DNA of 22,283 nt from NCBI GenBank assembly GCA_013204495.1, contig JABMNQ010000072.1, positions 1-22,283 on the forward strand, read 5' to 3'. The notes under the pieces are model-generated. The model worked only from the letters and a program-made list of their open reading frames with translations. It did not search any database and was not told the DNA's origin. Positions 2,108 through 20,561 of this stretch are shown piece after piece (within the stretch, counting starts at the first letter, position 1; every line of letters starts with the position of its first letter). Made by a program: the position numbers and the translations under genes. Source of the DNA: Candidatus Pelagibacter sp. (GTDB lineage Bacteria > Pseudomonadota > Alphaproteobacteria > Pelagibacterales > Pelagibacteraceae).

Positions 2108-2998
2108 TTATTCAGCTTTTAATAAATTAATTTTCTTATTAGATGATTTGATTATTATTTTATTTAATGAACCAAAATTATCACCATCTATTTGTACAGG
2201 TATTAGTTTATCTAAACCATCCATTTTAATTTCATTTACGTTTTTAATTATAACAGATGTTGATTTTTTTAAATTACCGTAAATAGTTATAAGATAAACA
2301 TAATATAAAAGCTTCAATCTCTTTAAATCTTTAAATACGTATGTAGTAAAGTTATTTTCAAAAATATTCGTATCTGCTATTTTGTGGTGCCCAGCATAGT
2401 ATTTGCTATTTGTGCATAAAACCCAATCAGCCAATATTTCCTTTTCATCTATAGTCACTTTAACTTTATTGTTGTTCATAAATATAAACTTTTCTAAACC
2501 TTTTAATCCAAAGATTATCTTACCTAGTATTTTTTTAATCTTGGTATTTATAGACTGCACTATTTGAGCATCCCAACCGATCCCGGCCATTAATACAAAG
2601 TATTGATCATTAATTTTTACTAAATTAGTTTTAGTTAGATTATTTGATGTAAGTGTTTTAGCTATGTTCTTAATATTTTTTGTCATTCCGAGTTCAGCTT
2701 GAAGTATATTTGCTGTACCCGCTGGAATATATCCGATTGCAAAATCATCCCCAATTATTGTTTTGTTTTTTATTAATTCATTAATTGCAAATGAAACTGA
2801 ACCATCTCCACCCGCTAAAATTAAACGTTGGTAATTATTTATGATTATATCTTTGATTATTTTTGAGGCTTCAATTATTGAGGTAGTTTCAAAAAAATCA
2901 ATTTCATGGTTGATTTTAATTTCATTATATATCTTTTTAATGAACTTTGACTTACGTCCACCTGCTGAGTTTTTGTTATAAATCAGACAAAATTTCAT
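2108..2998 (-). CDS. Diacylglycerol kinase family lipid kinase
   Basis: A 296-aa protein with the DAGK catalytic domain (YegS/DgkB/sphingosine-kinase superfamily), which transfers phosphate from ATP to a lipid alcohol such as diacylglycerol. Diagnostic motifs are the N-terminal NKNSAGG (8-14), the nucleotide-binding GGDGS (63-67), and IPAGTANILQAELG (91-104). GIGWDA near 138-143 is also typical. The C-terminal half (about 170-296) fits the lipid-binding beta domain. It starts about 80 bp from plcP on the opposite strand, sharing the promoter region at 2999-3077. Because PlcP makes diacylglycerol, a kinase that converts it to phosphatidate is a natural antagonist or recycler; this role is inferred from position. 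True lipid specificity cannot be read from the sequence. Confidence 0.85.
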   Translation of the reverse strand: MKFCLIYNKNSAGGRKSKFIKKIYNEIKINHEIDFFETTSIIEASKIIKDIIINNYQRLILAGGDGSVSFAINELIKNKTIIGDDFAIGYIPAGTANILQAELGMTKNIKNIAKTLTSNNLTKTNLVKINDQYFVLMAGIGWDAQIVQSINTKIKKILGKIIFGLKGLEKFIFMNNNKVKVTIDEKEILADWVLCTNSKYYAGHHKIADTNIFENNFTTYVFKDLKRLKLLYYVYLITIYGNLKKSTSVIIKNVNEIKMDGLDKLIPVQIDGDNFGSLNKIIIKSSNKKINLLKAE

Positions 2999-3010
2999 AA
3001 TTTAATAATT

Positions 3011-3031
3011 TTGTAACATTACCAATATAAT
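3011..3031 (+). promoter_or_regulatory. Possible PHO box and -10 in the dagK/plcP divergent region
   Basis: TTGTAAC-ATTA-CCAATAT at 3011-3028 shares TGTAACAT and the AAC-AT-WAC core with the pstS box, but its second half is weak. A TATAAT hexamer at 3026-3031 overlaps the end of the motif. It lies upstream of both the lipid kinase (minus) and plcP (plus). Direction and function are uncertain. Confidence 0.35.
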
Positions 3032-3077
3032 GATTCTACCTATATGAGAATCATAATCTTTTACAAGTTAAAAAAAA

Positions 3078-3893
3078 ATTACAACAGATAACCTGCAAAA
3101 TTATAAAAGCATTTTTATATCCGATATTCATCTTGGAACAAAAGGCTGCCAAGCTAGTAAGCTTTTAGAATTTCTTAAAAACAATAGATCCGAAAATTTA
3201 TATTTAGTAGGGGATATAATTGATGTTTGGGCAATGCAAAAAAACTTTTATTGGCCGCAAGAACACAATGATGTTATTCAAAAAATATTAAGAAAAGCAA
3301 AACAGGGGACTAAAGTTTTTTACATCATGGGAAATCATGATGAAATGTTAAGAAAATTTATACCAATGCATTTTGGAAGCATAAGAATGATTAATAGAGT
3401 TATTCATGAAACCTCCAATGGTAAAAGGTATTTGGTTGTGCACGGAGATGCCTGGGATGGTGTAATGAAATATGCCAAATGGCTTTCTAAACTTGGATCC
3501 ATTGCTTATGAATGGTTATTAAAATTAAATATTGTTATTAATTATTTTAGAAAATTAAGAGGCAAAGATTATTGGTCACTTGCAAAATTCCTAAAATACA
3601 AAGTTAAAAATGCAGTTAAATATATAGGTGAATACGAAAAAACAGTTTCTGAATATGCAAAGAGAAAAAAATTTGATGGAATTATTTGTGGACATATTCA
3701 TCATGCTGAAAACATAGATGTAGATGGAATCAACTATTTAAATTGTGGTGATTGGGTTGAGAGTTGTACTGCCCTGTGCGAAAAAAACGATGGAACTTTT
3801 GAGATTATATATTGGGATAAAATAAGAAAAAATTACTTAATAGATAAACAAACAAAAATTATAGAAGTGGATAATCTTAAAAAAGCTTCTTAA
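3078..3893 (+). CDS. plcP: PlcP-type metallophosphoesterase (LpxH-like)
   Basis: A calcineurin-like metallophosphoesterase, similar to UDP-diacylglucosamine hydrolases and to the PlcP phospholipase C of marine bacteria that strips phospholipid head groups under phosphate stress to give diacylglycerol. Counted from an ATT at 3078 (271 aa), the metal-site motifs are all present: DIHLG (16-20), GDIID (45-49), GNHDE (85-89), HGD (122-124) and GHIHH (205-209). The only in-frame ATG that would serve (3234) would delete the first two motifs, so the real start is upstream. The frame opens after a stop at 3069-3071; it offers ATT at 3078 and CTG at 3093 but no ATG, GTG or TTG. An ATG at 3044 is in another frame, separated by a 9-A run. 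The glycosyltransferase follows after 3 bp, which favours PlcP over LpxH. Confidence 0.8.
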   Translation: MTTDNLQNYKSIFISDIHLGTKGCQASKLLEFLKNNRSENLYLVGDIIDVWAMQKNFYWPQEHNDVIQKILRKAKQGTKVFYIMGNHDEMLRKFIPMHFGSIRMINRVIHETSNGKRYLVVHGDAWDGVMKYAKWLSKLGSIAYEWLLKLNIVINYFRKLRGKDYWSLAKFLKYKVKNAVKYIGEYEKTVSEYAKRKKFDGIICGHIHHAENIDVDGINYLNCGDWVESCTALCEKNDGTFEIIYWDKIRKNYLIDKQTKIIEVDNLKKAS

Positions 3894-3896
3894 TAA

Positions 3897-4904
3897 ATGA
3901 AAATCCTAATTGTAACTGATGCATATTTCCCCCAGGTTAACGGAGTGGTTAGAACTTTGCACGAAACAGGCGAAATTTTAAAATCACAAAGCCATACTAT
4001 TGAATATATTACGCCTCAACTTTTTTTTACATTTCCAATGCCAAAATATAATGAAATTCGATTATCTATTAATGTCTGGCCAAGAGTTGGTAATTTAATT
4101 AAAAGAATTAATCCTGATGCAATTCATATAGCGACTGAGGGTCCACTTGGAACAATGGCAAGAAGACATTGTATTAAAAATAATCTTAAATTTACAACTA
4201 GTTTTCATACAAGATTTGATAAGTATCTTAAATTGTATTTTCCAATTATTCCTTCAAAATGGGCAGAAAAATTTTTAGCTAATTTTCATAATAAAGCTGA
4301 ACGAATATTAGTGACAACTGAGACTATGAGAAAAGAATTGATTGAAATTGGAATAAACGATAGCAAAATGGTTACTTGGACTAGAGGAGGAAATCATGGT
4401 GCTTTTAAGAACCCCAAAAAAATTGACCTTCCCTATACAAGACCAATATGGATATATGTCGGAAGAGTTGCTATTGAAAAAAATATTCGAGCCTTTTTAG
4501 AATTAGATTTGAAGGGAACAAAAATAATCATAGGCAAAGGACCCGATCTTGAAAAATTAAAAAAAGAGTTCCCAAAAGATCATTTTTTAGGAGAAAAAAC
4601 TAATGGTCAGTTAGCTACTCATTTTGCTTCATCAGATGTTTTTGTATTTCCAAGTAAAACAGATACTTTTGGAATTGTGGTATTAGAGTCATTAAATTGT
4701 GGAACTCCAGTTGCAGCTTATCCAGTACCTGGCCCAATAGACATATTGGGTGGTAGTGAAATAGATACATTAGATAAAGATTTGAAAAATTCTGCATTAA
4801 AAGCTTTAAATGTAAGTAGGAAAGAATGTTTAAAATTTTCTAAAAAATATAGCTGGGAAGAAACTGCAAAAATATTTTTAGATAATATATCACCAAATAA
4901 TTAA
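3897..4904 (+). CDS. agt: GT4 glycosyltransferase, Agt-type glycolipid synthase
   Basis: A 335-aa GT-B fold glycosyltransferase of family 4. The N-terminal acceptor domain starts with MKILIVTDAYFPQVNGVVRT and contains EGPLGTMARRH (81-91) and FHTRFDKY (103-110). The C-terminal donor domain has YVGRVAIEKN (187-196), a GKGP loop (213-216) and the acid-x7-acid motif from Asp256 to Glu264 (TDTFGIVVLE). It follows plcP after tandem stops and 3 bp, so the two are almost certainly co-transcribed and translationally linked. The pairing matches the known plcP-agt arrangement in which Agt glycosylates the diacylglycerol made by PlcP, giving mono- or glucuronosyl-diacylglycerol at the inner membrane. Sugar donor specificity cannot be deduced. 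Its stop codon overlaps that of the convergent olsA. Confidence 0.85.
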   Translation: MKILIVTDAYFPQVNGVVRTLHETGEILKSQSHTIEYITPQLFFTFPMPKYNEIRLSINVWPRVGNLIKRINPDAIHIATEGPLGTMARRHCIKNNLKFTTSFHTRFDKYLKLYFPIIPSKWAEKFLANFHNKAERILVTTETMRKELIEIGINDSKMVTWTRGGNHGAFKNPKKIDLPYTRPIWIYVGRVAIEKNIRAFLELDLKGTKIIIGKGPDLEKLKKEFPKDHFLGEKTNGQLATHFASSDVFVFPSKTDTFGIVVLESLNCGTPVAAYPVPGPIDILGGSEIDTLDKDLKNSALKALNVSRKECLKFSKKYSWEETAKIFLDNISPNN

Positions 4905-5641
4905 TTAAGATTTAATACCTTTTTTTTAAGGTACTCAGCAATATTTGCATTATTCCATTTATTAAATTTTTCAGATTTTATACTTTTGCCAATTGTTAAA
5001 AAAAAAATATTATGGCGCTTATTTAAAAGTTCTCTAACAAATAATAGACGTCTCAAACTCTCACTAAAAAAACCAATTATTTGAAAAAACAATGAATTAT
5101 TACCGTGAAAATAAACTGGAAAAATTTTACAATTAGTTTTCTTAATTATGGATCCAATCAATGGTTTCCAATTTCTTTCAACAGCTTTATCAAAAATATA
5201 ATTAGAGGTAGCAACTTCACCAGATGGAAAGGCTATTAATACTCCTCCATTATTTACATGTTTAATAGCATTTCGTTTGGTTTGGATATTTTTTTTAATA
5301 TCTTTTTTAGCTGCAGAAAATTTAATGGGTAACAAATAATCTCTTATAAGATCTATTTGAGTTATCTCATCATTAATTAAAATTTTATAGTCACTTCTTA
5401 AATTTGTAATGATGGAAGAAATTATTAAACCATCTAGCAACCCAAAAGGATGGTTTGCAACAATAATTATGGGCTTTTTACTTGGAAATTTTTCTAAATA
5501 CCTTGGAAAGTATTTAATGTTTAAATATTCTAAAACTTTTTGCCAAAAATTATTAGAATTCTCAAGATCGTTATAATTATTTTCATAAAGTTTTTTTATT
5601 TTATCAAATTTTGTGATCTTATTAGTTAAGTATCTGATCAT
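4901..5641 (-). CDS. olsA: Lysophospholipid acyltransferase family protein, OlsA-like
   Basis: A 246-aa PlsC-superfamily acyltransferase. The catalytic motif is VANHPFGLLDG at 61-71, with His64 and Asp70; this is the NHPFG subclass with five residues between His and Asp rather than the usual four. The second block is AFPSGEVAT (137-145), equivalent to the FPEGT acyl-acceptor motif, and KIFPVYFHGNNS (172-183) is the third. It starts 2 bp after the stop of the OlsB-like gene, which strongly suggests that it esterifies lyso-ornithine lipid made by OlsB, completing ornithine lipid at the inner face of the membrane. A general lysophospholipid acyltransferase role is the alternative. Its end overlaps the end of agt by 4 bp, leaving no room for an intergenic terminator. 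Confidence 0.75.
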   Translation of the reverse strand: MIRYLTNKITKFDKIKKLYENNYNDLENSNNFWQKVLEYLNIKYFPRYLEKFPSKKPIIIVANHPFGLLDGLIISSIITNLRSDYKILINDEITQIDLIRDYLLPIKFSAAKKDIKKNIQTKRNAIKHVNNGGVLIAFPSGEVATSNYIFDKAVERNWKPLIGSIIKKTNCKIFPVYFHGNNSLFFQIIGFFSESLRRLLFVRELLNKRHNIFFLTIGKSIKSEKFNKWNNANIAEYLKKKVLNLN

Positions 5642-5643
5642 AA

Positions 5644-6468
5644 TCAGATTATTTTATTTATGTATTCATAATTAATTTTACTAGTTGGTAAGAAAACAAA
5701 CACATCTGTAGTTTTAAACTTGTTATCGACTACCACACCATCACCTATATACGCATTAAGCTTAATGTACCCCTTAATAAGAGTAGGTAATGATCTTATT
5801 AATTCTAAATTCAATTCAATTTTTTTGGTTGAATCAAGTTTAGCTCTAAATTTTTTTAATGCTTTAACTTCAATTAGATCAGGCATTTTATAGTTTTGTT
5901 GTAAAAATATTAATTGATCTTCAATTTTACTCACATCAGTTTCAAGAAAACTTGCTGTGCCAAACATAGCATCTATTTTATTTATACTAATATAATTATA
6001 TATTTCTCGCCACATCAACTTGAGAACATTTTTATTTCTAAAATGTTGTGATATACAGGATCTACTTAATTCAAGCATATTTGAATAATGATTTGCGGCA
6101 GTTAGTTTTGTTAAATCATATTCTTCAGAACTATAAAAACCAATTTTTTGTTCTGCTATTTTTTGCTTTAGTAATCTGTATGTACCTACGGTCTTACTTT
6201 TGGCAAATTTAGATTTTTTGTAACTTACTATTATATGATCACAATAACTGTCATATTTATCAGAATCCCTTCTAAAGTTGCTAATATTAAAAATTTTCTT
6301 TTTATTTCTGTCTGAAAAAAAAACCTCATATCGTAACTTTTGCGCTTTCTTAACTTCAGATTTAGTCTCTGCTAATTTAACTAAATAATCAGGTTTAAAA
6401 AAATTTTTAGTATTAATATAAATATTTTTAGTATGACTTGAATATAAATTTAGAGTATTTTTAATCAC
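5644..6468 (-). CDS. olsB: OlsB-like ornithine N-acyltransferase (GNAT fold)
   Basis: A 274-aa protein of the OlsB/hemolysin-like acyltransferase family, which joins a 3-hydroxyacyl group from acyl carrier protein to ornithine, the first step of ornithine lipid synthesis. Family marks are KAQKLRYEVFF (41-51), DSYCDHIIV (73-81), VGTYRLL (94-100), GFYSSEEYDL (110-119) and the ELSRSCI block (133-139) followed by MFGTASF (168-174). It is the first gene of a tight two-gene unit with olsA. Ornithine lipids contain no phosphorus and are made by many alphaproteobacteria under phosphate limitation. The divergent neighbour is phoR, only 69 bp away, consistent with a role in the phosphate response. Amino acid specificity (ornithine or another) cannot be read from the sequence. 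Confidence 0.8.
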   Translation of the reverse strand: MIKNTLNLYSSHTKNIYINTKNFFKPDYLVKLAETKSEVKKAQKLRYEVFFSDRNKKKIFNISNFRRDSDKYDSYCDHIIVSYKKSKFAKSKTVGTYRLLKQKIAEQKIGFYSSEEYDLTKLTAANHYSNMLELSRSCISQHFRNKNVLKLMWREIYNYISINKIDAMFGTASFLETDVSKIEDQLIFLQQNYKMPDLIEVKALKKFRAKLDSTKKIELNLELIRSLPTLIKGYIKLNAYIGDGVVVDNKFKTTDVFVFLPTSKINYEYINKII

Positions 6469-6512
6469 ACTCTATATATAAAATATTTTTATGAAAAAAT
6501 TATTAAGAAATT

Positions 6513-6530
6513 ATTTCAATTTTATTTCAA
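6513..6530. promoter_or_regulatory. 11-bp-spaced ATTTCAA direct repeat, possible degenerate PHO box
   Basis: ATTTCAA at 6513-6519 recurs exactly 11 bp later at 6524-6530, the periodicity of PhoB sites. Each copy matches the CTGTCAT unit at only about 4 of 7 positions. It lies between divergent olsB and phoR, close to the phoR ATG, so it would better suit control of olsBA on the minus strand, where TATATA-like sequence follows. Weak evidence. Confidence 0.25.
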
Positions 6531-6537
6531 AACTTTA

Positions 6538-7686
6538 ATGGAATTAGTTATTATTATATTATTATTAACAAATATTTTTTTATTGTATCTGCTTAATAAG
6601 AAATCAGTTAATTCCTTTAATACTGCAACTATTGTAAACAGAGAAAAAACTGATCATTTTAATAAAAAATTTATAGTTGATGAGTTAGATGATTTTTTAT
6701 TTGTTTTAGATAAATTTAATACAGTAAAATACTTAAACAAAAGTTCTGAAAAAAGATTTGGCCTCAACTTAATTGATAAAAATGTTTCATCAATAATTCG
6801 AGATAGTGAATTAATTAAAAATATAGAAATATCCTCCAAACAGAAAATTACCAAAAATATTAAAATTGAAATCACCACTCCATCTTTTCAATATTATGAT
6901 ATCTTTATTATACCTGGTCCAACTAATCTTTATCCAGTTGTGGGCTCTGTTGTTTTATTTATTAAAGATTTAACAGAAATTATAAAAGCTCAAAAATTTA
7001 GAACTGACTTTGTGGCAAATGTTTCTCATGAACTTAGAACACCCCTGATGTCCATTAAAGGATCAATAGAAACTATAGAAGATGCCGCCAAGGATGATCC
7101 CAAAGCACAAAAAAAATTTAGAAAAATAATTTTAGATCAATCCAACCGAATGCAAACTCTTATTGATGACCTTTTAATTTTATCAAGGATTGAGCTAGAT
7201 GAACATATCAGACCCAATGACAAAGTTAATGTAAATGACATATTCGATCAAATTGAATCAAATTTTGAATTAATAATGAAAGAAAAAAATATAAATTTAT
7301 TAAATAGTTTAGATAAGCCAACAGAAGTTATTGGAGATTATAATAAATTATTTACGTTGTTTTCAAATTTAGTTGATAATTCAATTAAATATTCTTTGAA
7401 CAATACTCGTATAGAAGTACATAGTGAAATCAAAAAAGGGAAAATTATTGAGAAAAGTATTTGTGTTAGTGTTAAAGATCAGGGAATTGGAATACCCAAG
7501 AAGCACATTGATAGAATTACAGAAAGATTTTATAGGGTTGACGAAAATAAAAGCCATAATGTTGGTGGCACAGGCTTAGGGCTTGCTATAATGAAACATA
7601 TTATCACTCAGCACAGGGGGGATTATGAGATTCTAAGTGATCTTGGCAAAGGAACTGAAGTTAAAATTTATCTGCCAACTACTTGA
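6538..7686 (+). CDS. phoR: Phosphate sensor histidine kinase PhoR
   Basis: A 382-aa membrane histidine kinase. One hydrophobic segment at 2-19 is followed by a PAS-like region (about 45-145) and a complete kinase core: phospho-acceptor His164 in NVSHELRTPL, N-box LVDNSIKYS (Asn281), DQGIGIP (314-320), the F-box around RFYRVDENKSH and the G-box GGTGLGLA (343-350). FYRVDENKSHNVGGTGLGL is the typical PhoR form. It should phosphorylate PhoB when phosphate is scarce, under control of the Pst complex and PhoU. The gene lies ahead of pstS, about 6 kb from phoB, with a terminator after it, so it is likely its own transcription unit. Having only one membrane segment and no large periplasmic domain is normal for PhoR. 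Confidence 0.92.
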   Translation: MELVIIILLLTNIFLLYLLNKKSVNSFNTATIVNREKTDHFNKKFIVDELDDFLFVLDKFNTVKYLNKSSEKRFGLNLIDKNVSSIIRDSELIKNIEISSKQKITKNIKIEITTPSFQYYDIFIIPGPTNLYPVVGSVVLFIKDLTEIIKAQKFRTDFVANVSHELRTPLMSIKGSIETIEDAAKDDPKAQKKFRKIILDQSNRMQTLIDDLLILSRIELDEHIRPNDKVNVNDIFDQIESNFELIMKEKNINLLNSLDKPTEVIGDYNKLFTLFSNLVDNSIKYSLNNTRIEVHSEIKKGKIIEKSICVSVKDQGIGIPKKHIDRITERFYRVDENKSHNVGGTGLGLAIMKHIITQHRGDYEILSDLGKGTEVKIYLPTT

Positions 7687-7689
7687 GTT

Positions 7690-7716
7690 AAAAAAGCCAA
7701 TTAATAAAGCTTTTTT
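7690..7716 (+). terminator. phoR: Terminator after phoR
   Basis: AAAAAAGC (7690-7697) pairs perfectly with GCTTTTTT (7709-7716) around an 11-nt loop, giving a stem whose 3' arm ends in a T run. It begins 4 nt after the phoR stop and separates phoR from the secreted-protein gene. Confidence 0.65.
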
Positions 7717-7723
7717 GATATCT

Positions 7724-7741
7724 TTTTAACATAACTTTTAT
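7724..7741 (+). promoter_or_regulatory. Possible PHO box before the unknown secreted gene
   Basis: TTTTAAC-ATAA-CTTTTAT at 7724-7741 has the 11-bp periodicity of PhoB sites and shares the run AACATAACT with the pstS box. It lies 34 bp before the ATG at 7776, leaving room for a -10 element. The units match less well than at pstS. Confidence 0.45.
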
Positions 7742-7775
7742 TGAAGTATGTTTTGTTTTTTCTTAAGATAAAATA

Positions 7776-8378
7776 ATGGTAAAATTATTTAATATTTTTC
7801 TTTTAATATTTTTATTTATTTTTAAATCCAATAGTTTTTCTAGTGAAATTAGCGAGCTGTTAAAAAAACAGCAATTAACAGTTTTTGATATTGGCATATT
7901 TAGATTGAAAGAAGATCTACTAAAAGCGCGTCAAGAAATTCATAAACATTTAGATACTAGTGAAGAAAATTTATATTTAGATGTAATAACTTCTTACAGA
8001 AGTGATCAAATAATTCTTATTGCTTCTATTCCAATGGATGAAAATTTAAATTCGTTAACTTATATGTCTGATTCTTTTAGATGTAGAAATATTTTTAATT
8101 CCATTAGAGACCATTTATTAAAACAAGAAATTTATAATGACTACCGATATTCAATGGCCAAAAGTTATCTCACTTCAGTATTTTCTACTCCATCTTCCTG
8201 GAGAAGTTGGCGATATACTGAAAAATTTAAAGAGGACCTAGTAAATTTAGTAAAACTTCAAGTTACACTTAGACCAACAAATAAATTAGCTTTAAAAGAG
8301 ACTGTTTATCCAGTTTCTTGTGAGGGTGGACTTGAATATGAAAAAGAAGAGCTAATTTTAACTAAAAAATACAACTAA
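7776..8378 (+). CDS. Unrecognised secreted protein between phoR and pstS
   Basis: A 200-aa protein I do not recognise. It begins with a basic residue and a strongly hydrophobic Leu/Phe/Ile segment (5-16), then SNSFSSE, which looks like a Sec signal with cleavage near residue 22, so the mature protein is probably periplasmic. The mature part has exactly two cysteines, Cys103 (FRCRN) and Cys182 (PVSCEGG), which could form one disulphide. A Trp/Arg patch, SSWRSWRYTEKF (140-151), and a conserved-looking C-terminal YPVSCEGGLEYE (178-189) stand out. There are no other membrane segments. A PHO-like box precedes it, phoR lies upstream behind a terminator, and pstS follows after 98 bp. This suggests a phosphate-stress role, perhaps at the cell envelope, but nothing in the sequence shows an activity. 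Confidence 0.75.
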   Translation: MVKLFNIFLLIFLFIFKSNSFSSEISELLKKQQLTVFDIGIFRLKEDLLKARQEIHKHLDTSEENLYLDVITSYRSDQIILIASIPMDENLNSLTYMSDSFRCRNIFNSIRDHLLKQEIYNDYRYSMAKSYLTSVFSTPSSWRSWRYTEKFKEDLVNLVKLQVTLRPTNKLALKETVYPVSCEGGLEYEKEELILTKKYN

Positions 8379-8392
8379 AAAGTTATCTTTTT
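8377..8392 (+). terminator. Weak A/T hairpin after the secreted gene
   Basis: AAAAAG (8377-8382), a TTAT loop and CTTTTT (8387-8392) form a short hairpin at the stop codon. It has only one G-C pair, so termination here is uncertain. Confidence 0.3.
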
Positions 8393-8399
8393 AATAAAA

Positions 8400-8445
8400 C
8401 TGTAACATAACTGTAATATTTAGTTATCAAAAAAATTCTATTAAC
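8400..8445 (+). promoter_or_regulatory. pstS: PHO box and promoter region of pstS
   Basis: CTGTAAC (8400-8406), ATAA, CTGTAAT (8411-8417) is a clean 11-bp tandem repeat matching the PhoB-binding unit CTGTCAT at 5 of 7 positions (first copy) and 6 of 7 (second copy). A -10-like TCTATT or TATTAA lies at about 8437-8444, at the distance expected for a PhoB-activated promoter lacking a good -35. It directly precedes pstS. Confidence 0.75.
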
Positions 8446-8476: not shown

Positions 8477-9472
8477 ATGAAAAAAATAACTTTAACTCTA
8501 GCTGCTTTAGTTGCATTTTCTTTTGCAACTGTTGCTCAAGCAAGAGATCAAATCCAAATCGTTGGATCATCTACTGTGTATCCATATGCGACGGTAGTAG
8601 CTGAAAGATTTGGTCAATCTGGTTTTAAAACACCAGTAATTGAATCAACAGGAACAGGCGGTGGTGCAAAATTATTTTGTGCTGGAGTAGGTGAACAATA
8701 TCCAGATATTACAAATGCATCAAGAGCAATGAAAGATGAAGAAAAAGCTTTATGTAAAAAAAATGGTGTCAACGAAATTGTTGAAATAGTTGTTGGTAAC
8801 GATGGGATTACTTTAGCTTACAGCAGAGATGAAAAACCAGTTAACTTTACAAAAGAACAACTTTGGAAAGCTCTAGCTAAAAATGTTGCCGTAAATGGAG
8901 AATCTGTAGCAAACCCATACAAAAAATGGAGCGATATAGATTCATCACTACCCAATCAAGCAATTAAAGTTATGGTGCCTCCAGGAACATCTGGAACAAG
9001 AGATGCATGGGACTCATTAGTTATGGGAAAAGGTATTGATAAAGCATCAAAAGATCTAAAAATTGAGCATGACGAATACAGAGAAGATGGTGCTGTAATC
9101 GAAGTTGGTGAAAATGACAGTCTTATCATTCAAAAATTGATAGCTGATAAAGAAATGTTTGGTTTCTTTGGTTTTAGTTACTTTTTAGCTTCTAAAGATA
9201 AGCTTCAAGCTGCAAGTATTGATGGTGGTCAACCAAGTCTTAAAGCAATTCAAGACTACAGTTATGCAGTAGCTAGACCTTTATTTTTCTATGTAAAAAA
9301 AGCTCATATTGGTGTGATACCTGGTTTACATGAGTTTGTTAAAGAGTTTACAACAAAAAAAGCTATAGGTAAGGGTGGTTATCTTGCTGATGTTGGACTT
9401 GTACCTTTAGATAATAAAAAATATAAAACTACTAGAGACAACGCAACTAAGTTAGTTGCTATGGCTAACTAG
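8477..9472 (+). CDS. pstS: Phosphate-binding periplasmic protein PstS
   Basis: A 331-aa substrate-binding protein of the high-affinity phosphate ABC transporter. A Sec signal (MKKITLTLAALVAFSF) with cleavage after AQA at residue 22 precedes the mature start RDQIQIVGSSTVYPYA. Phosphate-contact motifs are GSSTVYP near 30-36, ESTGTGGG near 55-62, the DITNASR block, GNDGITLAYS and PPGTSGTRDAW around 169-179. The ribosome binding site AAAAAGGAAT is well placed. A PHO box lies upstream and a strong palindromic terminator downstream, so it can be made in large excess over the membrane subunits, as usual for binding proteins. Codons look more optimised (fewer rare G/C choices) than in neighbouring membrane genes, consistent with high expression. 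Confidence 0.96.
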   Translation: MKKITLTLAALVAFSFATVAQARDQIQIVGSSTVYPYATVVAERFGQSGFKTPVIESTGTGGGAKLFCAGVGEQYPDITNASRAMKDEEKALCKKNGVNEIVEIVVGNDGITLAYSRDEKPVNFTKEQLWKALAKNVAVNGESVANPYKKWSDIDSSLPNQAIKVMVPPGTSGTRDAWDSLVMGKGIDKASKDLKIEHDEYREDGAVIEVGENDSLIIQKLIADKEMFGFFGFSYFLASKDKLQAASIDGGQPSLKAIQDYSYAVARPLFFYVKKAHIGVIPGLHEFVKEFTTKKAIGKGGYLADVGLVPLDNKKYKTTRDNATKLVAMAN

Positions 9473-13667: not shown

Positions 13668-14351
13668 ATGCCTTCACATATTTTTATTGCTGAAGATGAA
13701 AACTCGATACTATCATTATTAAAATACAATTTAGAAAAAGAAGGCTATAAAGTAAGTTCAGCTGACAATGGTGAAGAAGCTTTAGAGTTGATAAAAGAAA
13801 AAAATCCAGATTTAATTTTAATGGATTGGATGTTACCAAATCTTTCTGGAATTGAAATTTCAAAACAGTTAAAAAAAGATAAAAAATATATCGATATACC
13901 CATTATTATGCTTACCGCAAAAGGAGAAGAAGAAGACAAACTTAAAGCCTTTGATGTTGGAACAGATGATTATGTTACAAAACCATTTAGTCAAAAAGAA
14001 CTCAATGCCAGAATAAAGTCATTACTAAAAAGATCTAAGCCTCAAAGTTCATCAGATATTGTAGAATTTACTGATCTTAAAATTGATAGAATCACAAAAA
14101 GAGTTTATAGACGAGAACAAGAAATTAATTTAGGACCAACTGAATTTAAACTTTTAGATTTTTTCATTAAAAATCCAAAAAGAGTATATTCAAGAGAACA
14201 ACTATTAAATAATGTTTGGGGTGAAAATATTTATGTTGAAGCAAGAACGGTGGATGTTCATATAAGAAGATTAAGACAAGCTATTAATTTAAAGGATTTA
14301 AAGCCATTAATCAGAACTGTGAGATCAGCAGGCTATTCGTTAGAATCTTAG
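13668..14351 (+). CDS. phoB: Phosphate response regulator PhoB
   Basis: A 227-aa OmpR/PhoB-family regulator. The receiver domain (about 1-120) has acidic Glu9/Asp10, phospho-acceptor Asp53 (LMDWMLP), Thr83 and Lys105 (TKPFS). The winged-helix domain (about 130-225) has the recognition helix EARTVDVHIRRLRQAI and a closing RTVRSAGYSLE, typical of PhoB. Phosphorylated by PhoR, it should bind the CTGTAAC/CTGTAAT repeat at pstS and related sites. It is the last gene of the pst operon; its 3' end overlaps convergent sixA by 4 bp, so there is no separate terminator between them. Confidence 0.95.
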   Translation: MPSHIFIAEDENSILSLLKYNLEKEGYKVSSADNGEEALELIKEKNPDLILMDWMLPNLSGIEISKQLKKDKKYIDIPIIMLTAKGEEEDKLKAFDVGTDDYVTKPFSQKELNARIKSLLKRSKPQSSSDIVEFTDLKIDRITKRVYRREQEINLGPTEFKLLDFFIKNPKRVYSREQLLNNVWGENIYVEARTVDVHIRRLRQAINLKDLKPLIRTVRSAGYSLES

Positions 14352-14860
14352 ATGTCCTTAGGTCGAATAAACTCAGCTAATTTTCCGGATTTTTCATTTA
14401 TTAAATTCCAATTATCAAAATTGAAAATTACCCTTGCATAAGCTGAGGTTGAGAACTTATAATTCAATAATTTAGTTAAGTTATTATTTTTGTTTTTGAT
14501 CAAAAAATTTGTCAAGTTTCTAACTGCAGGCTCATGATTGATTAATAAAACACTTTTATACTCTTGGCTCACACCATTTAATTTTGTTAGAATTTCATTA
14601 TCATTTGCTAGGTATAAATTTTTGGAAGTTATTATTTTTTTTGGCTTTTTTATTTTTTTTTTTAAAATTTTAAGTGTTTCAATAGTTCTTAAGGATGTTG
14701 ATAGCATTATTAAATCAAAGGAGATGTTTCTTTTAACAAAAAGTTCACAAATCTTTTTTGCGTTTTTTCGACCTCTTTTACTTAGTGGACGATCATGATC
14801 TGATAGATTTAGATCATCCCAACTGGATTTCGCATGACGCATAATATACAATTCAAGCAT
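14348..14860 (-). CDS. sixA: Phosphohistidine phosphatase SixA
   Basis: A 170-aa histidine-phosphatase-superfamily enzyme. The RHG-type motif is MRHAKSSWDD with catalytic His9 and Arg8; DHDRPLSKRG (21-30) is the SixA signature and LLINHEPAVRNL carries the second active-site His. SixA removes phosphate from phosphohistidine on signalling proteins (in E. coli on HPt or nitrogen-PTS partners). It is convergent with phoB, overlapping it by 4 bp, and divergent from ppk with only 18 bp between the starts. A role in trimming histidine-phosphate signalling of this island is possible but is inferred only from position. Confidence 0.85.
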   Translation of the reverse strand: MLELYIMRHAKSSWDDLNLSDHDRPLSKRGRKNAKKICELFVKRNISFDLIMLSTSLRTIETLKILKKKIKKPKKIITSKNLYLANDNEILTKLNGVSQEYKSVLLINHEPAVRNLTNFLIKNKNNNLTKLLNYKFSTSAYARVIFNFDNWNLINEKSGKLAEFIRPKDI

Positions 14861-14878: not shown

Positions 14879-17017
14879 ATGACTTTAATTAAAAACACTA
14901 AAAAGAACTTAAATAGGTTTATTAACCGAGAAATTTCTTGGTTAAAATTTAATGAAAGAGTTTTATCCGAAGCAAATAATAACACTATTCCATTATATGA
15001 AAGAGTGAAGTTTTTATCTATCGCTGGGTCTAATCTTGATGAATTCTTTATGGTTAGAGTTGCTGGATTACATAGTCAAATTAAACAAGATGTCGAATCA
15101 TTGAGTTCTGATGGTCTAACACCTAATGAGCAAATGAATGAGGTTGTTAAAAAAACTAAGGAACTTCTTAATAAACAAAATAAAATTTATAAAAATTTGA
15201 TTGAACTTTTATCAAAAAATAATATCAGTTTAGTCAAACCGAATTCACTAAATAAAGAAGAAAAAAAACAGATTTATAAGATTTTTTTAGAAGATATTTA
15301 TCCATTATTAACTCCTTCAGCGATAGATCCTGCACACCCATTTCCTTTTATTGGAAACAAAGAAAGATCAATAATCTTATCTTTACAAAAAAAGAATAAA
15401 AAAAAAATTTTAAATGCAATTATAGTAATTCCTAAAGCACTACAAAGGTTTATTTCGATAGGAAATTCAAAAAAAAATAAAAAATTTTTAATAATTGACG
15501 ATGTTATAAATCATTTTATTTCTGAAATCTTCCCAGGTCATGTAGCTAAAAACAAAATGGTTTTTCGAATAACAAGGGATAGTGATGTTGAATTTCAAGA
15601 AGAGTCTGAGGACCTGGTCCAATCATTTGAACTTGCCTTAAAACAAAGAAGAACAGGAGATATTGTTAGATTAGAAATACTTGAAAATTCAGACAAAGGT
15701 TTAGTAAAATTTATAACTGAAAAGCTAAAAATAGCTAATGAGTATTCTTATGTTGTTTCAGGGCTAGTGGGTATTCAAGATATTGATCAATTATGTAATA
15801 ATAAAAATTCCAAACACTTATTTAAACCATTCAAGCCTCGAGAAGTCGAACGACTAAAGGAACATAATAATGATTTTTTTGAGACAATAAAAAAGAAAGA
15901 TTTAATAGTTCATCATCCTTTTGAAACTTTCGATGCTGTTATCGAGTTTTTAAATCAAGCAGCTAAAGACCAAAAAGTTTTAGCCATCAAACAAACGTTA
16001 TATAGAACGACTTTAGACTCACCTATTGTAAGAGCTTTAATAACAGCGGCTGAAAACGGAAAGGTAGTTACAGCTGTAATTGAAATTAAAGCAAGATTTG
16101 ATGAAGAGTCTAATATTCAATTATCAAGAAGTCTGGAAAAAGTAGGTGTACAAATTGTCTATGGTTTTGCAAAATATAAAACGCACGCAAAGTCTTCCCT
16201 TATTTTGAGAAAAGAGGGAAATAAAATTCATACATATTTTCATCTGGGAACAGGGAATTATCATCCTATTAATGCCAAAATTTATACAGATTTATCTTTG
16301 TTTAGTTGTAATAAATTATTAGCAGCAGATGTTGAAAAGGTTTTTAATTATGTGACTGGTTATGCAAAACCAAAAAATCTTAATAAAATTTCCATATCAC
16401 CCCTTAATTTAAGAGAAACGATTGAAAAATTTATCGATAATGAAACTGTTAATGCTAACAACAATAAACCAGCTCAAATTTGGTTTAAATTAAATTCATT
16501 AGTTGATAGCAGGATTATTGACAAACTGTATAAAGCTTCAAATAGCGGAGTTAAAATCAATTTATTTGTAAGAGGCATTTGTTGCTTAAGACCTGGTGTT
16601 AAAGGTATGTCAGAAAATATTGTAGTAAAAAGTATAATTGGTCGTTTTTTAGAACACTCTAGGATTTATTGTTTTGCAAATGGGGAGTTGATGCCAAATA
16701 GAAATGCTAAAGTTTTTATTTCTTCAGCAGATTTAATGCCAAGAAATCTTAACCGTAGAGTTGAATTGTTAATCCCAATAGAGAATAAAACCGTACACGA
16801 GCAGGTGTTAGATCAAATTATGGTAGCTAATTATTTAGATAATGTGCAAAGTTGGCAATTAGATTCGATGATGAATTATAATAAGATTAAATATGATAAA
16901 AATAGTTCTTTTTCTGCACATGAATATTTTATGAAAAACCCAAGCTTATCTGGAAGAGGAAAATCTAAAATTAAGTTTAAACCCAAAAAACTACAGCTTT
17001 TAAATTTTAAAAAATGA
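14879..17017 (+). CDS. ppk: Polyphosphate kinase Ppk1
   Basis: A 712-aa enzyme that polymerises the gamma-phosphate of ATP into polyphosphate. The N-terminal domain opens with NREISWLKFNERVL (16-29) and SNLDEFFMVRVAG (51-63). Catalytic residues align almost one-to-one with the E. coli enzyme: phospho-acceptor His436 (KYKTHAKSS), His593 (LEHSRIY), Arg376 (LYRTT) and Arg406 (KARFDEE). GNYHPINAKIYTD (459-471) and GICCLRPGV (566-574) are further family blocks. The start lies 18 bp from divergent sixA, with AGGA just before the ATG. Its stop overlaps the ppx start (ATGA), so the synthesising and degrading enzymes are made from one coupled message. Confidence 0.96.
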   Translation: MTLIKNTKKNLNRFINREISWLKFNERVLSEANNNTIPLYERVKFLSIAGSNLDEFFMVRVAGLHSQIKQDVESLSSDGLTPNEQMNEVVKKTKELLNKQNKIYKNLIELLSKNNISLVKPNSLNKEEKKQIYKIFLEDIYPLLTPSAIDPAHPFPFIGNKERSIILSLQKKNKKKILNAIIVIPKALQRFISIGNSKKNKKFLIIDDVINHFISEIFPGHVAKNKMVFRITRDSDVEFQEESEDLVQSFELALKQRRTGDIVRLEILENSDKGLVKFITEKLKIANEYSYVVSGLVGIQDIDQLCNNKNSKHLFKPFKPREVERLKEHNNDFFETIKKKDLIVHHPFETFDAVIEFLNQAAKDQKVLAIKQTLYRTTLDSPIVRALITAAENGKVVTAVIEIKARFDEESNIQLSRSLEKVGVQIVYGFAKYKTHAKSSLILRKEGNKIHTYFHLGTGNYHPINAKIYTDLSLFSCNKLLAADVEKVFNYVTGYAKPKNLNKISISPLNLRETIEKFIDNETVNANNNKPAQIWFKLNSLVDSRIIDKLYKASNSGVKINLFVRGICCLRPGVKGMSENIVVKSIIGRFLEHSRIYCFANGELMPNRNAKVFISSADLMPRNLNRRVELLIPIENKTVHEQVLDQIMVANYLDNVQSWQLDSMMNYNKIKYDKNSSFSAHEYFMKNPSLSGRGKSKIKFKPKKLQLLNFKK

Positions 17018-18522
17018 GAAAATTAAATCAAGAAATAAAATATAGTATAGATCTAGAGACATCTAAAATTGCAATTATTGATATTGGGTCAAATTCGATA
17101 AGAATGCTTATATATGAAAATTTTAATTACTCTCGAGTGCCTTTTTTTAATGAAAAAGCAGTTTGCGAACTCGGGAAAAATTTAGATAAATCACGTAAAC
17201 TAAATATCAAGGGGAAACAATATGCTCTTAATGTTTTAAAAAGATTTTCTGAAATATTAAATGTTTCAAAAATTAATAATATAAGAATAATCGCTACAGC
17301 TGTTCTAAGAGAAGCCACAGATACAAATAATTTTGTTAAAGAAATTGAAAATTTATTTAATACAAAAGTAAATATTCTCTCAGGAAATGAAGAAGCAGAA
17401 CATAGCGCAGAAGGAGTTAAAATAGGTTTTAAACATGTTGATGGATTAGTTGCAGATTTAGGTGGTGGAAGTCTTGAACTAGCTAAAGTAGAAAATAATA
17501 TTGTAACCAATAAAACTTCATTACCCCTAGGTGTTTTAAGGTTACTGAATAATCCACTGATAAAAAAAAGAAATCTAAGTAAATATGTTAAAAAACTATT
17601 TAAAGATGAGAAATGGCTTTCTAAAAAGACTTTTAATAATTTATATTTAGTTGGAGGGACATGGAGAGCCTTACTTAAATTACATTTATTTCAAAATAAC
17701 CATCCTGTTCATATTATACATCAATATTCTGTGGAAAAAATAAAGATCCAATCTTTCATAAATAATATTTCTAGTTTTAATAAATCCAAGTTAAAATCTG
17801 TGGAATATATCTCTAAATCTAGAACTCCTTATTTGCCATTCAGTTCAATTATTCTAAACGAGATAATTGATTTAATTAATCCTAAAAATATTTTATGCTC
17901 AATAAGTGGTATTCGAGAAGGCGCACTTGCAATTGAATATTTTAAAGAGACATCTCATAATCAAATATTCAATAATTCCTTAAATTATATTGCTTTAAAA
18001 CGAGGTGACATTGGTTATAATTATAAAAAGTACTACAATTTCCTTAAGCCCATATTTGATGACAATGATTATTTTAATGATGATTTGTTAAATCTTGCTT
18101 GCGTATTAAGTCATATGGATTGGGGACTAGGAGCATTTCAAAAAGCTGAATTAGTTTTTAATGAAACACTTAATACACCATTATTAAGATTAACTCATAA
18201 CGACAGAATTAAACTAGCTCTTTCATGTTACTGGAGATACTGCAATATAAAATATAATCCACAAATAGAGTATTTGAAGTACTTAAATAATAATGAAATT
18301 TACTCTAGTAAGCAAGTTGGTGCAGCGCTTCGATTTGCTCATACCCTTACTTCAATTTCAACAATATTTTTAGAGGAATTTAAATTATACAAAAGAGGTA
18401 ATTCGTTATTTTTAAAGATCCCTTTTGATCATCAAGAAATAATCTCAAAGCAAGTAACTAAAAGATTTAAATCTTTATCTAGAGAAATGTTTTTAGAACC
18501 AAGAGTATTATATTCAAAATAA
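17014..18522 (+). CDS. ppx: Exopolyphosphatase of the Ppx/GppA family
   Basis: A 502-aa Ppx/GppA phosphatase of the actin-like ATPase fold, which removes terminal phosphates from polyphosphate or pppGpp. The two phosphate-binding loops are IIDIGSNSIRMLIYE (about 21-35) and VADLGGGSLELA (about 145-156), with ATAVLREATD and LSGNEEAEHSAEGV between them. The C-terminal part (about 315-502) is helical and fits the HD-like extension found in Ppx. The overlap of 4 bp with ppk supports polyphosphate as the substrate. No terminator is evident behind it before phoX. Confidence 0.9.
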   Translation: MRKLNQEIKYSIDLETSKIAIIDIGSNSIRMLIYENFNYSRVPFFNEKAVCELGKNLDKSRKLNIKGKQYALNVLKRFSEILNVSKINNIRIIATAVLREATDTNNFVKEIENLFNTKVNILSGNEEAEHSAEGVKIGFKHVDGLVADLGGGSLELAKVENNIVTNKTSLPLGVLRLLNNPLIKKRNLSKYVKKLFKDEKWLSKKTFNNLYLVGGTWRALLKLHLFQNNHPVHIIHQYSVEKIKIQSFINNISSFNKSKLKSVEYISKSRTPYLPFSSIILNEIIDLINPKNILCSISGIREGALAIEYFKETSHNQIFNNSLNYIALKRGDIGYNYKKYYNFLKPIFDDNDYFNDDLLNLACVLSHMDWGLGAFQKAELVFNETLNTPLLRLTHNDRIKLALSCYWRYCNIKYNPQIEYLKYLNNNEIYSSKQVGAALRFAHTLTSISTIFLEEFKLYKRGNSLFLKIPFDHQEIISKQVTKRFKSLSREMFLEPRVLYSK

Positions 18523-18587
18523 TTTGAATTTTATTCATTGTATAAATTATCAATTAAAAGTTGAGTTTTAATAAACTATTAATATTT

Positions 18588-18605
18588 TTGTAATACATTC
18601 TTAAC
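18588..18605 (+). promoter_or_regulatory. phoX: Possible PHO box before phoX
   Basis: TTGTAAT-ACAT-TCTTAAC at 18588-18605 has the 11-bp repeat spacing. The first unit matches CTGTAAT at 6 of 7 positions and the second is weaker. It lies 36 bp before the phoX start, between ppx and phoX. Confidence 0.45.
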
Positions 18606-18641
18606 AATTTAAATTTACTGTTACTTTTAAAAGGAGACATT

Positions 18642-20561
18642 ATGAAAAAATTAAATAATTATAATTACGAAAATTTATCAATTGATGAATTTGATGAAAT
18701 AAATAATCCACCACCAGCAGTTGTCGATTTCGATAAAATTCTTAAAAAAGCAATGACCAGAAGAAATTTTGTGAAAGGAAGTTTTATGTTTGGGACTTCT
18801 GCATTTGTATTGGGTTCTGGACTAAATATGTTAGCAACATCAGATGCTGAAGCATCTTTTTCAAGATTGATTGATTTTAAACCAATTAAATCAGATATGA
18901 CTGATGATATAACTATACCTGAAGGTTATAGCTGGGATGTTGTTGCAAAATGGGGAGATCCTTTATTTAGTAATGGAAAATGGTTCGACCATTACACCAG
19001 AGGTACCGGTGAGAGCCAAGAGCTAGCTTACGGTGATAATAATGATGGTATGGATACTTTTTATACTCAAGATGGAAAAACTATTATTGCTGTAAACAAT
19101 GAATATGTGAATAGATCAATAATGTTTGATAATCGAGGCTCAAAATTACCTGAGACAGAAGACGATATAAGAAAAGGAAAAGCGGGCCATGGTGTAAGTA
19201 TTTTTGAAATCTCAAATAATAATGGTGAATGGAAAATTGTGGTCGACTCTAAGTATAATAGAAGGATAACTGCAGACTCTAAAATGGAGCTAACCGGTCC
19301 TGCAAGAGGACACACTTTATTAAAAACAATTTCTGATCCAACTGGAACTGTTTCATTGGGAACATGGAATAATTGTGGAAATGGGAAAACTCCATGGGGA
19401 ACATATTTGGCTTGTGAGGAAAACTTCAATGGGTACTTCTCTAATACGGATTTAAATGCTGATATACCACCGGAGTTTAAAAGATATGGTATTTCAACAA
19501 AGGACTGGGGTTACGCTTGGGGCAAATTTGATAATAGGTTTAATTGGGACCTAGAACCAAATGAACCAAATAGAGCTGGTTATGTAGTTGAAATAGATCC
19601 GTTAAATCCCTCATCTACACCAAAAAAAAGAACAGCTTTAGGAAGGTTCAAACATGAAAATGCTGAAGTTGTACTAGGTAAAAATAATGAAGTTATTGTC
19701 TATCTTGGTGATGATGAAAGAGGAGAATATTTGTATAAATTTATTTCATCTAAAAAATATAAAAAGAACGGAGATAACTCTGATTTATTAGAAGATGGTG
19801 ATTTATTTGTTGCTAAATTTAAGGAGAACGGAACAGGTGAATGGTTACCTCTTACACCAGAAACAACAGGCATGAAATCTAAGGCTGAGATTGCAATTCA
19901 TACAAGAATGGCCGCATCCTCAGCTGGTGGAACTACAATGGACAGACCCGAGTGGGTTGCTGCGAATCCTCTTAAAGCAGAGTCATATGTTGCTTTAACT
20001 AATAATAAAAATAGAGGAAAAAAACCAAATGCAGGTGGTGATGATACTTCTATTAATGGGCCCAATCCAAGAGCTGATAACCAATATGGTCAAATTGTTA
20101 GATGGATAGCTGACAGAAATGATCATGCTTCACCTAACTTTAAATGGGATATATTTGCTTTAGCTGGGAATCCACCAGTTCATGCAGGATTAAAAGCTGG
20201 ATCAAAAAATATTAATAAGGATAATATGTTTAATTCTCCAGATGGTATTAAGTTTGATTCCCAAGGCGGGTTGTGGATCCAGACAGATGGAAACTATTCC
20301 AACAAAGGTGATTTTGCAGAAATGGGAAATAATCAAATGCTTTATGGAGATCCAAAAACTGGTGAAATTAAAAGATTTCTTGTAGGACCCAATGAATGTG
20401 AAGTAACTGGGTTAACTTGGAGCAAAGATTACAAAACTATGTTTGTTGGTATTCAACATCCAGGAGAGAAAGGTAACTCTACTTGGCCAGATGGACCTGA
20501 TACGGCACCAAGATCAGCATTAATTGCTATAAGAAAAAATGATGGTTCACGAATAGGATAA
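18642..20561 (+). CDS. phoX: PhoX-type alkaline phosphatase, Tat-exported
   Basis: A 639-aa DUF839/PhoX phosphatase, an Fe/Ca enzyme of the periplasm or cell surface that frees phosphate from organic phosphate esters. The N-terminus has a long leader, then the Tat motif MTRRNFVKGSFMF with Arg40-Arg41, a hydrophobic segment (47-64) and a likely cleavage site after DAEA at residue 71. PhoX metal-site motifs are visible: TYLACEENFNG with Cys258 and Glu259, KHENAEVV with Glu339, GDDERGEY with Asp357/Asp358, and SPDGIKFDSQGGLWIQTDG near the C-terminus. A strong AAAAGGAG ribosome binding site precedes the ATG. It follows ppx after 119 bp and has its own candidate PHO box and a strong terminator. 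Confidence 0.95.
   Translation: MKKLNNYNYENLSIDEFDEINNPPPAVVDFDKILKKAMTRRNFVKGSFMFGTSAFVLGSGLNMLATSDAEASFSRLIDFKPIKSDMTDDITIPEGYSWDVVAKWGDPLFSNGKWFDHYTRGTGESQELAYGDNNDGMDTFYTQDGKTIIAVNNEYVNRSIMFDNRGSKLPETEDDIRKGKAGHGVSIFEISNNNGEWKIVVDSKYNRRITADSKMELTGPARGHTLLKTISDPTGTVSLGTWNNCGNGKTPWGTYLACEENFNGYFSNTDLNADIPPEFKRYGISTKDWGYAWGKFDNRFNWDLEPNEPNRAGYVVEIDPLNPSSTPKKRTALGRFKHENAEVVLGKNNEVIVYLGDDERGEYLYKFISSKKYKKNGDNSDLLEDGDLFVAKFKENGTGEWLPLTPETTGMKSKAEIAIHTRMAASSAGGTTMDRPEWVAANPLKAESYVALTNNKNRGKKPNAGGDDTSINGPNPRADNQYGQIVRWIADRNDHASPNFKWDIFALAGNPPVHAGLKAGSKNINKDNMFNSPDGIKFDSQGGLWIQTDGNYSNKGDFAEMGNNQMLYGDPKTGEIKRFLVGPNECEVTGLTWSKDYKTMFVGIQHPGEKGNSTWPDGPDTAPRSALIAIRKNDGSRIG

Follow-up and report, generated by a model that had tools for sequence, protein, structure and literature searches.

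Few kinds of cell are as abundant in the surface ocean as SAR11, and the way these bacteria save phosphorus bears on ocean productivity. In the general Pho model, PstSCAB/PhoU together with PhoR sense falling phosphate, and PhoB, once phosphorylated, attaches to direct-repeat boxes. Lipid-replacement proteins have been described from Candidatus Pelagibacter sp. HTCC7211: in the sections of PMC4796936 that deal with them, its PlcP complements a Phaeobacter plcP mutant and its Agt yields MGDG and GADG in E. coli. Passages of PMC6298996, citing Carini 2015, have SAR11 isolates making ornithine but not glutamine lipids under phosphorus (P) depletion, and parts of PMC10734472 describe flexible phosphate genomic islands (fGIp-C/D/E/H) in the HIMB59 order. 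Here we analyse a window of 22,283 nt, which is the whole of contig JABMNQ010000072.1 in a 1.22-Mb metagenome-assembled genome (MAG) of Pelagibacteraceae (SAR11) (GCA_013204495.1; 86% complete, 197 contigs, 2.5% contamination). The window very probably represents the Pelagibacter (SAR11) Pho island in its full, HTCC7211-like version, a patchwork of a backbone and two separable parts, the putative ornithine-lipid pair olsBA and the alkaline phosphatase gene phoX.

Gene order, distribution, tree results and box-like sites carry this reading here; PlcP and Agt function and PstS structure come from work on the HTCC7211 proteins, and regulation and enzyme activities in the window organism are inferred. 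Passages of PMC12421899 are among the cited support.

Gene order in the window and in its relatives

With < marking genes on the reverse strand, the window reads dgk<, plcP-agt, olsA<olsB<, phoR, X200 (a gene for a 200-aa protein), pstSCAB-phoU-phoB, sixA<, ppk-ppx, phoX and nudix/aquaporin/arsC<. The order and orientation from dgk to ppk are the same in locus L163 of genome G409. PstS of L163 is identical to crystal structure 9JWY, which is HTCC7211 PstS, and L163 was therefore taken as the phosphate region of Candidatus Pelagibacter sp. HTCC7211 (the comparison spans dgk to ppk; ppx and phoX are outside the compared stretch). The arrangement is thus not new, although the window proteins are 46-85% identical to those of L163, the window flank is cytb561/dlh where L163 has sugar nucleotidyltransferase-ilvD-valS, and the window OlsB falls in another clade. 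By their identity to the L163 copies (Table 1), the window plcP and agt are orthologous to the genes of the functional HTCC7211 enzymes. Counting L163, six genus relatives (L155-158, L163 and L164) share the window's gene order between dgk and ppk, with olsA<olsB< in place.

For a wider comparison we used the named loci, which are the best 80 of 580 stretches matching the window PstS, all titled Pelagibacteraceae or Pelagibacterales. Some of these were too short for a given test: eight for X200-pstS, 21 for agt-phoR, 24 for dgk-plcP-agt and 18 for phoB-ppk-ppx. In all testable loci, dgk<-plcP-agt is retained (56/56), agt is directly 5' of phoR (59/59, none with olsB), X200 is directly upstream of pstS (72/72) and sixA-ppk-ppx is downstream of phoB (62/62). 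The gene 3' of ppx is nudix in 54 loci and phoX in four (4/58; 18 named loci without a ppx match and four ending past ppx were left out).

Outside the named loci the picture is more varied. pstS is found in 35 of 61 genomes (60 relatives and the window's own); of 36 genus relatives, 10 carry a pstS of 82-83% identity and eight one of 64-66%, and none was found in the other 18 (these genomes are often incomplete). The pst stretches of the eight genomes at 64-66% hold a minimal version, phoR-pstSCAB-phoU-phoB without plcP, agt, X200, ppk and ppx. In family f2 of the same order, seven out of 11 stretches have agt, sixA, ppk, ppx, phoR and pst together but rearranged. Since the same order recurs in relatives, the gene clustering is beyond chance; the same recurrence rules out a unique island. 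Gene order around pstS in SAR11 relatives, the comparison proposed in the initial annotation of this DNA (made by a model from the letters and open reading frames), accordingly bears out a recurring backbone.

Genes were called from open reading frames (ORFs) with Pfam and NCBIfam scans, the curated NCBIfam cut-offs deciding what is above or below. PstC, PstA, PstB, PhoU, PhoB and Ppk1 are above these cut-offs. PhoX, Ppx/GppA, DAGK, Metallophos, GT4/GT1, acyltransferase, Acetyltransf_5 (OlsB-like), HisKA+HATPase and PstS-type PBP matches are above the Pfam cut-off. For PlcP, Agt, OlsA, OlsB, PhoR, PstS, the lipid kinase, SixA, Ppx, ArsC and MIP the best relevant NCBIfam match is below cut-off, and names of such proteins rest on Pfam domain, orthology or context. 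The genes and coordinates named in the initial annotation agree with the ORFs and family scans; X200, sixA and a nudix/MIP channel/arsC block reaching 22165 are additional to its list (Table 1). The nudix/MIP/arsC trio is also found 3' of ppx in another locus (L130). olsA and agt overlap convergently. Rfam and tRNA scans of the window were empty, and Agt had no solved relatives at E<=1e-20.

The start of plcP is uncertain: ATT at 3078 is assumed and the first ATG is at 3234. Between 3043 and 3234 there is no ATG, GTG or TTG ahead of the conserved N-terminal part, and nine consecutive A precede the opening of the frame; either an unusual start codon or a misassembled A-run may account for this.

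Table 1. Genes and Pho-box-like sites of the window (bits are scores against NCBIfam models; PWM, position weight matrix)
Feature	Position	Strand	Evidence
dgk, diacylglycerol kinase-family lipid kinase	2108..2998	-	PF00781 E 2e-19; TIGR00147 below cut-off
Pho-box-like site, divergent dgk/plcP region	3000..3017	+	PWM 11.9
plcP, phospholipase C-type metallophosphoesterase	3078..3893	+	PF00149; 79% identity to L163 copy
agt, glycolipid glycosyltransferase	3897..4904	+	PF13439/PF00534; 83% identity to L163 copy
olsA-like acyltransferase	4901..5641	-	PF01553; OlsF 133 bits, GlsA 92 bits, both below cut-off
olsB-like N-acyltransferase, GTG start	5644..6468	-	PF13444 E 4e-25; OlsB models 217, 187 bits, below cut-off
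Weak three-half-site Pho-box-like repeat upstream of olsB	6502..6530	-	triple score 7.3
phoR sensor histidine kinase	6538..7686	+	HisKA+HATPase; TIGR02966 297 bits vs cut-off 334
Weak Pho-box-like repeat upstream of X200	7713..7741	+	scores 9.2, 9.3
X200, 200-aa protein	7776..8378	+	no Pfam/NCBIfam match at E<=0.001
Three-half-site Pho box (predicted) upstream of pstS	8389..8417	+	23.1 as triple
pstS phosphate-binding protein	8477..9472	+	PF12849; 73% identity to L163 PstS
pstC permease	9552..10937	+	TIGR02138 285 bits, above cut-off
pstA permease	10906..12195	+	TIGR00974 210 bits, above cut-off
pstB ATPase	12206..12961	+	TIGR00972 402 bits, above cut-off
phoU	12961..13659	+	TIGR02135 205 bits, above cut-off
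phoB response regulator	13668..14351	+	TIGR02154 325 bits, above cut-off
sixA-like histidine phosphatase	14348..14860	-	PF00300; TIGR00249 67.8 vs cut-off 74.5
ppk1 polyphosphate kinase	14879..17017	+	TIGR03705 891 bits, above cut-off
ppx exopolyphosphatase	17014..18522	+	PF02541; TIGR03706 258 vs cut-off 307
Pho-box-like site upstream of phoX	18588..18605	+	score 12.6; weaker half sites from 18566
phoX alkaline phosphatase	18642..20561	+	PF05787 E 5e-169
nudix, MIP-family channel, arsC-like genes	20600..22165	-	PF00293, PF00230, PF01451; TIGR02691 below cut-off

The separable parts: olsBA and phoX

One of 60 relatives has OlsB, as do 20 of 399 genus genomes (a subset of a larger group; the 20 include the window's own). 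Of the 19 other olsB genomes, the six listed above have the pair between agt and phoR, with pst. In another six (L151-154, L160 and L165) olsBA has flanking sequence on both sides, and the stretch carries neither agt nor phoR. In L162 (genome G373) dgk-plcP-agt-olsA<olsB< is followed by phosphonate genes (PhnI and others), with no pst on the stretch; this run (L162:6058-17544) is placed behind the usual island flank genes. olsB adjoins agt in L167 and L168, where the contig ends within olsB, and its context is cut short in L159, L161, L166 and L169. Neighbours were listed for five stretches: GDPD in L151, phnD in L160, PhnI and others in L162, and in L159 and L165 genes with no evident phosphate role. 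Three genomes (G230, G238 and G378) keep an intact plcP-agt-phoR-pst run that lacks olsBA. A genome from another genus of the family (G477; stretch L188) has plcP-agt-olsA<olsB<-phoR-X200 with olsB 47% identical, and neither dgk nor pst within the 20 kb of the stretch.

These distributions do not support the idea, put forward in the initial annotation, of one unit with both lipid routes: olsB is missing from every testable named locus, is rare in the genus and is displaced in six genomes, the run without olsBA occurs, and phoX rarely follows ppx. Orthologues scattered elsewhere in close relatives, which that annotation would have taken as refuting a single module, were found for the ols pair only.

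In the OlsB tree (38 rows) the window protein groups with the displaced copies L151-154 (support 100/99), and the same-slot HTCC7211 copy forms a separate clade with other displaced copies (100/99). This tree was built from 16 loci and 21 of 120 listed homologues, hand-picked, with the partial L167-169 and L188 left out, and the tool warned of long branches among distant rows. Fresh insertion of olsBA in the window is doubtful, since the pair occupies this slot in the HTCC7211 clade too, and likewise in another genus. Because the OlsB clades differ and G477 holds the same slot, the slot is old or has been filled repeatedly, and the pair is no less likely to have been lost or relocated in most Pelagibacter than to have been inserted recently.

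The window pair has OlsB N-acyltransferase and OlsA O-acyltransferase domains side by side, with curated scores below cut-off; the nearest NCBIfam model to OlsA is the N-terminal half of OlsF, followed by GlsA.

Three proteins were noted in passing. A 696-aa secreted-looking protein (L151:6875-8965), whose gene is divergent to olsB, matched nothing in Pfam or NCBIfam, and its candidacy as PhoX-like was dropped for this reason. A 110-aa protein (L160:10575-10907) adjoins olsB in L160, L162, L165 and L166 and has no Pfam match (one copy scanned). A 298-aa metagenome protein (P0180) is listed with both OlsB-type and DAGK Pfam domains and may be a fusion or an assembly artefact.

phoX is the other patchy part of the island, probably gained or lost separately. 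The kilobase 19001-20000 within phoX has the window's highest GC content (36%; other kilobases 22-32%), as might be expected if phoX had an origin of its own.

Pho-box-like sites and the X200 gene

A search for the enteric-type Pho box (TGTCAT-N5-TGTCAT, up to three mismatches) gave no signal (21 matches in the window, 30 expected). SAR11 sites fit a half site YTKTAAY in 11-bp repeats. We trained a PWM only on the relatives' pstS upstream regions (15 distinct sites; threshold 11.5). Six window sites reach at least 11.5. Two overlapping ones are upstream of pstS and two fall in the gap that separates dgk from plcP; phoX has one upstream, and the sixth is within pstB. Five of the six are intergenic, and intergenic DNA is 6.3% of the window. 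Column-permuted PWM controls placed five intergenic sites among the top six in two of 300 cases, and controls with spacers other than 4 gave no or one intergenic match. The consensus with at most one mismatch has 21 window matches (11 of them intergenic) versus 4.5 expected, and none of 100 shuffles was as high.

Upstream regions of relatives were scored in the same way; 2.4% of random 165-bp stretches score at least 11.5. This score is reached by 54 out of 54 distinct plcP regions, 48 out of 48 of the shared divergent dgk region, three out of four phoX regions and 61 out of 69 pstS regions (the last are training genes and not independent), and by none of one arsC region. For X200 it is reached by 3/51, with a median of 9.3 against a random 95% point of 9.2. 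As three half sites, the olsB box scores 13.7-18.9 in 17 loci, both in and out of the slot, and 5.4 in L188; the 95% point is 4.7 for random 170-bp stretches and 18.3 for AT-rich ones, and the two background sets come from loci with genuine boxes. Common Pho control of pstS, plcP/dgk and phoX is thus supported by predicted boxes, and for olsB the repeats are suggestive of such control.

In the proposed mechanism PhoB would bind before pstS, dgk/plcP and phoX, and possibly before X200 and olsB. PstSCAB would import phosphate, PhoX would free it from esters, and Ppk and Ppx would store it as and release it from polyphosphate. PlcP would strip phospholipid headgroups to give diacylglycerol, which Agt would glycosylate and the lipid kinase could return to phosphatidate, while OlsB/OlsA would make a P-free aminolipid, probably ornithine lipid. 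The MIP channel and ArsC may handle arsenate entering with phosphate. In relatives, versions of the conserved backbone would occupy one chromosomal site, with olsBA and phoX gained or lost separately.

X200 is the least explained part of the island, a conserved and apparently unstudied gene. Its protein has a hydrophobic N-terminus, which suggests export, and two cysteines that are invariant in an alignment of 35 sequences (mean column identity 71%). There are 104 homologues, none listed with a Pfam domain, and the named ones are all Pelagibacteraceae or Pelagibacterales; of 297 genomes across the order, X200 was found in 137. Eight pairs, two of which repeat one comparison, gave dN/dS values of 0.05-0.38, with dS saturated in some. 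A predicted model (pLDDT 79, pTM 0.75) had no Foldseek match at E<=0.001; the best match (E 0.022, to unrelated large enzymes) was rejected as a guide to the fold, and VIA-align gave no clear relative.

Any function of X200 would have to be read from its position. Besides its adjacency to pstS in the named loci, X200 is directly 5' of pstS in G423/L189, where phoR lies beyond the other end of the pst operon, and it adjoins phoR in L188, a stretch with no pst. In three f2 stretches (L191, L192 and L198) a homologue with 27-31% identity is encoded at a distance from pst; its L191 neighbours are AtuA, an ABC ATPase and two Peripla_BP_6 proteins. On these contexts rests a reading of X200 that we offer tentatively: it would found an undescribed Pelagibacterales family whose members are exported, probably disulfide-bonded and act in the periplasm as accessory or signalling partners to ABC importers, and here it would couple PstS/PstCA to PhoR. 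In the same reading, which we hold somewhat doubtful as a whole, olsBA would be a small cassette with its own Pho-box-like promoter that moves between phosphorus loci (pst, phnD, C-P lyase, GDPD). Against X200 as a partner, eight minimal-version and 11 f2 stretches lack it beside pst, so that pst can do without it; export and the disulfide are read from the protein sequence. In several f2 genomes a TMEM164-family membrane protein (L128:10067-10810) is encoded between phoR and pstS, the X200 position.

Chromosomal site, alternative explanations and described islands

In most displayed genus loci the island is behind valS-ilvD-sugar nucleotidyltransferase (the transferase identified by Pfam, valS and ilvD named by eye), whatever its version: minimal pst, full pst, pst+ols or C-P lyase+ols. 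Exceptions among displayed loci with enough flank are L032, L036, L089 and partly L093. We built a flank tree from ilvD and the transferase of 60 loci, by a quick method and on a biased sample; the window, with its cytb561/dlh flank, is not on it. The minimal version (six loci) needs five changes on this tree, a number also forced by its starred branches (shuffled mean 5.8; 89 out of 500 shuffles as low), and the sister loci L099 (full) and L113 (minimal) have near-identical flanks. Since different versions are at one site and the minimal version is scattered on a core-gene tree, versions may be exchanged.

Several observations weigh against a freely exchanged, jointly controlled, HTCC7211-like island. 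Scatter is confined to the minimal version: on the flank tree, four changes suffice for the full version (45 loci) versus a shuffled mean of 13.6 (0/500 as low), two for pst+ols (six loci) versus 5.8 (0/500), and eight for all labels jointly versus 14.7 (0/200). Because the full version, pst+ols and all labels are clustered in this way, most versions would have been passed on by descent, the minimal version in some cases replacing another or being itself replaced. The named loci were picked by PstS similarity, and the sample thus favours this island version. As for the boxes, relatives' upstream regions reach at least 11.5 in 0/31 for phoR, 0/31 for ppk and, as a pair, 0/16 for distinct olsB regions; the window's own olsB box is weak as a triple (Table 1), the second dgk/plcP intergenic site (3067-3084, minus strand) is poly-A-like, and the match inside pstB (12614-12631, minus strand; score 16.6) is probably due to chance. 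The OlsB and OlsA scores below curated cut-offs leave the amino-acid headgroup not fixed by sequence. The left flank of the window, with dienelactone hydrolase (dlh) and cytochrome b561 genes (36-929 and 1512-2042), is unlike the usual island flank, so the window is not at the common Pho-island site, and the claimed likeness to HTCC7211 concerns gene arrangement and not chromosomal site; the sugar nucleotidyltransferase was not found in the MAG, in a search without positive control of a genome 86% complete. The co-regulated module of the initial annotation accordingly finds partial support, in backbone order and in the boxes at pstS, plcP/dgk and phoX, less so at X200, olsB, phoR and ppk with weak boxes or none. 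Its transferable module is likewise supported in part, by the different versions at one site and the scattered minimal version, but not by the clustered full and pst+ols versions or by an island that is a patchwork.

Inherited synteny only, with genes kept together through low SAR11 rearrangement and not by co-regulation or module exchange, would account for the invariant backbone order in testable named loci, the clustering of most version labels and the lack of detectable boxes at phoR and ppk. We consider it improbable, given full and minimal versions behind near-identical flanks in L099 and L113, a similar set in different order in seven out of 11 f2 stretches, and plcP and phoX sites detected by a matrix whose training set held nothing but pstS regions. 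At the other extreme, the whole 18-kb stretch with both lipid routes could move as one mobile cassette; the dgk-to-ppk order common to the window and six relatives and the plcP-agt-olsA<olsB<-phoR-X200 run in another genus (L188) would suit this. Such a cassette is very improbable and largely refuted by displaced and pst-free contexts: olsB is absent from the testable named loci and away from agt and phoR in six genomes, G373 has dgk-plcP-agt-olsBA beside phosphonate genes, L188 lacks pst and dgk, and the window OlsB groups with displaced copies and not with the same-slot HTCC7211 clade. In addition, no tRNA was found in the window, and general family scans found no integrase among the scanned proteins.

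Two further explanations concern parts of the window. The OlsB/OlsA pair might make another aminolipid (e.g. glycine or glutamine lipid) or serve a non-phosphate role, as the nearest OlsA models (all below cut-off) and the neighbours in L159 and L165 would allow; this is not likely, for the window OlsB is 64% identical to the HTCC7211-like L163 copy and SAR11 isolates are cited as making ornithine lipids (see above). The contig might instead be mis-binned or chimeric, its flank, and perhaps olsBA, being foreign to the MAG's organism. A second dlh copy in the MAG (G000:C194, L185) is 85% identical, the nearest outside copy among 296 other genomes of the order is 84% identical and from another genus, dlh was found in none of eight genus genomes, and the MAG is fragmented and partly contaminated. 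GC per kilobase (22 to 36%) does not decide this question. The same dgk-to-ppk order in genus genomes and the exclusively Pelagibacteraceae or Pelagibacterales names of X200 homologues speak for a native contig, and a chimera is unlikely. With the full, HTCC7211-like Pho island as the preferred reading, a conserved backbone with variable add-ons (olsBA, phoX, C-P lyase) predicts the lipid-replacement route of each lineage, and the gene between phoR and pstS is singled out as deserving study.

The window resembles several described islands. Like the type 2 neighbourhood of PMC4796936, for which HTCC7211 is an example, it has plcP directly 5' of agt, and putative Pho boxes are reported there in plcP clusters; olsBA, X200 and pst adjacency are not described in the text sections of that paper. 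fGIp-C of HIMB59, in the parts of PMC10734472 that describe it, holds pst, phoR-phoB, ppk, ppx, sixA, alkaline phosphatase, DGK, LpxH-like and glycosyltransferase genes in 18.5 kb, like the window, and also a glycerol facilitator and a tyrosine phosphatase, like the MIP/arsC end of the window. The HIMB59 island versions do not follow genomospecies. HIMB59 differs in belonging to another bacterial order; those parts do not name olsB or olsA, and the hypothetical proteins that they mention may or may not include an X200 counterpart. Passages of PMC7318151 describe a flexible island of SAR11 that carries pstSCAB-phoU and PhoB-PhoR, always in one place, in divergent versions (<60% amino acid identity) in gMED and gWID, and leave lipid genes unmentioned. 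The exchange of island versions at one site in the window's relatives fits both this SAR11 island and the HIMB59 islands, so far as those passages describe them.

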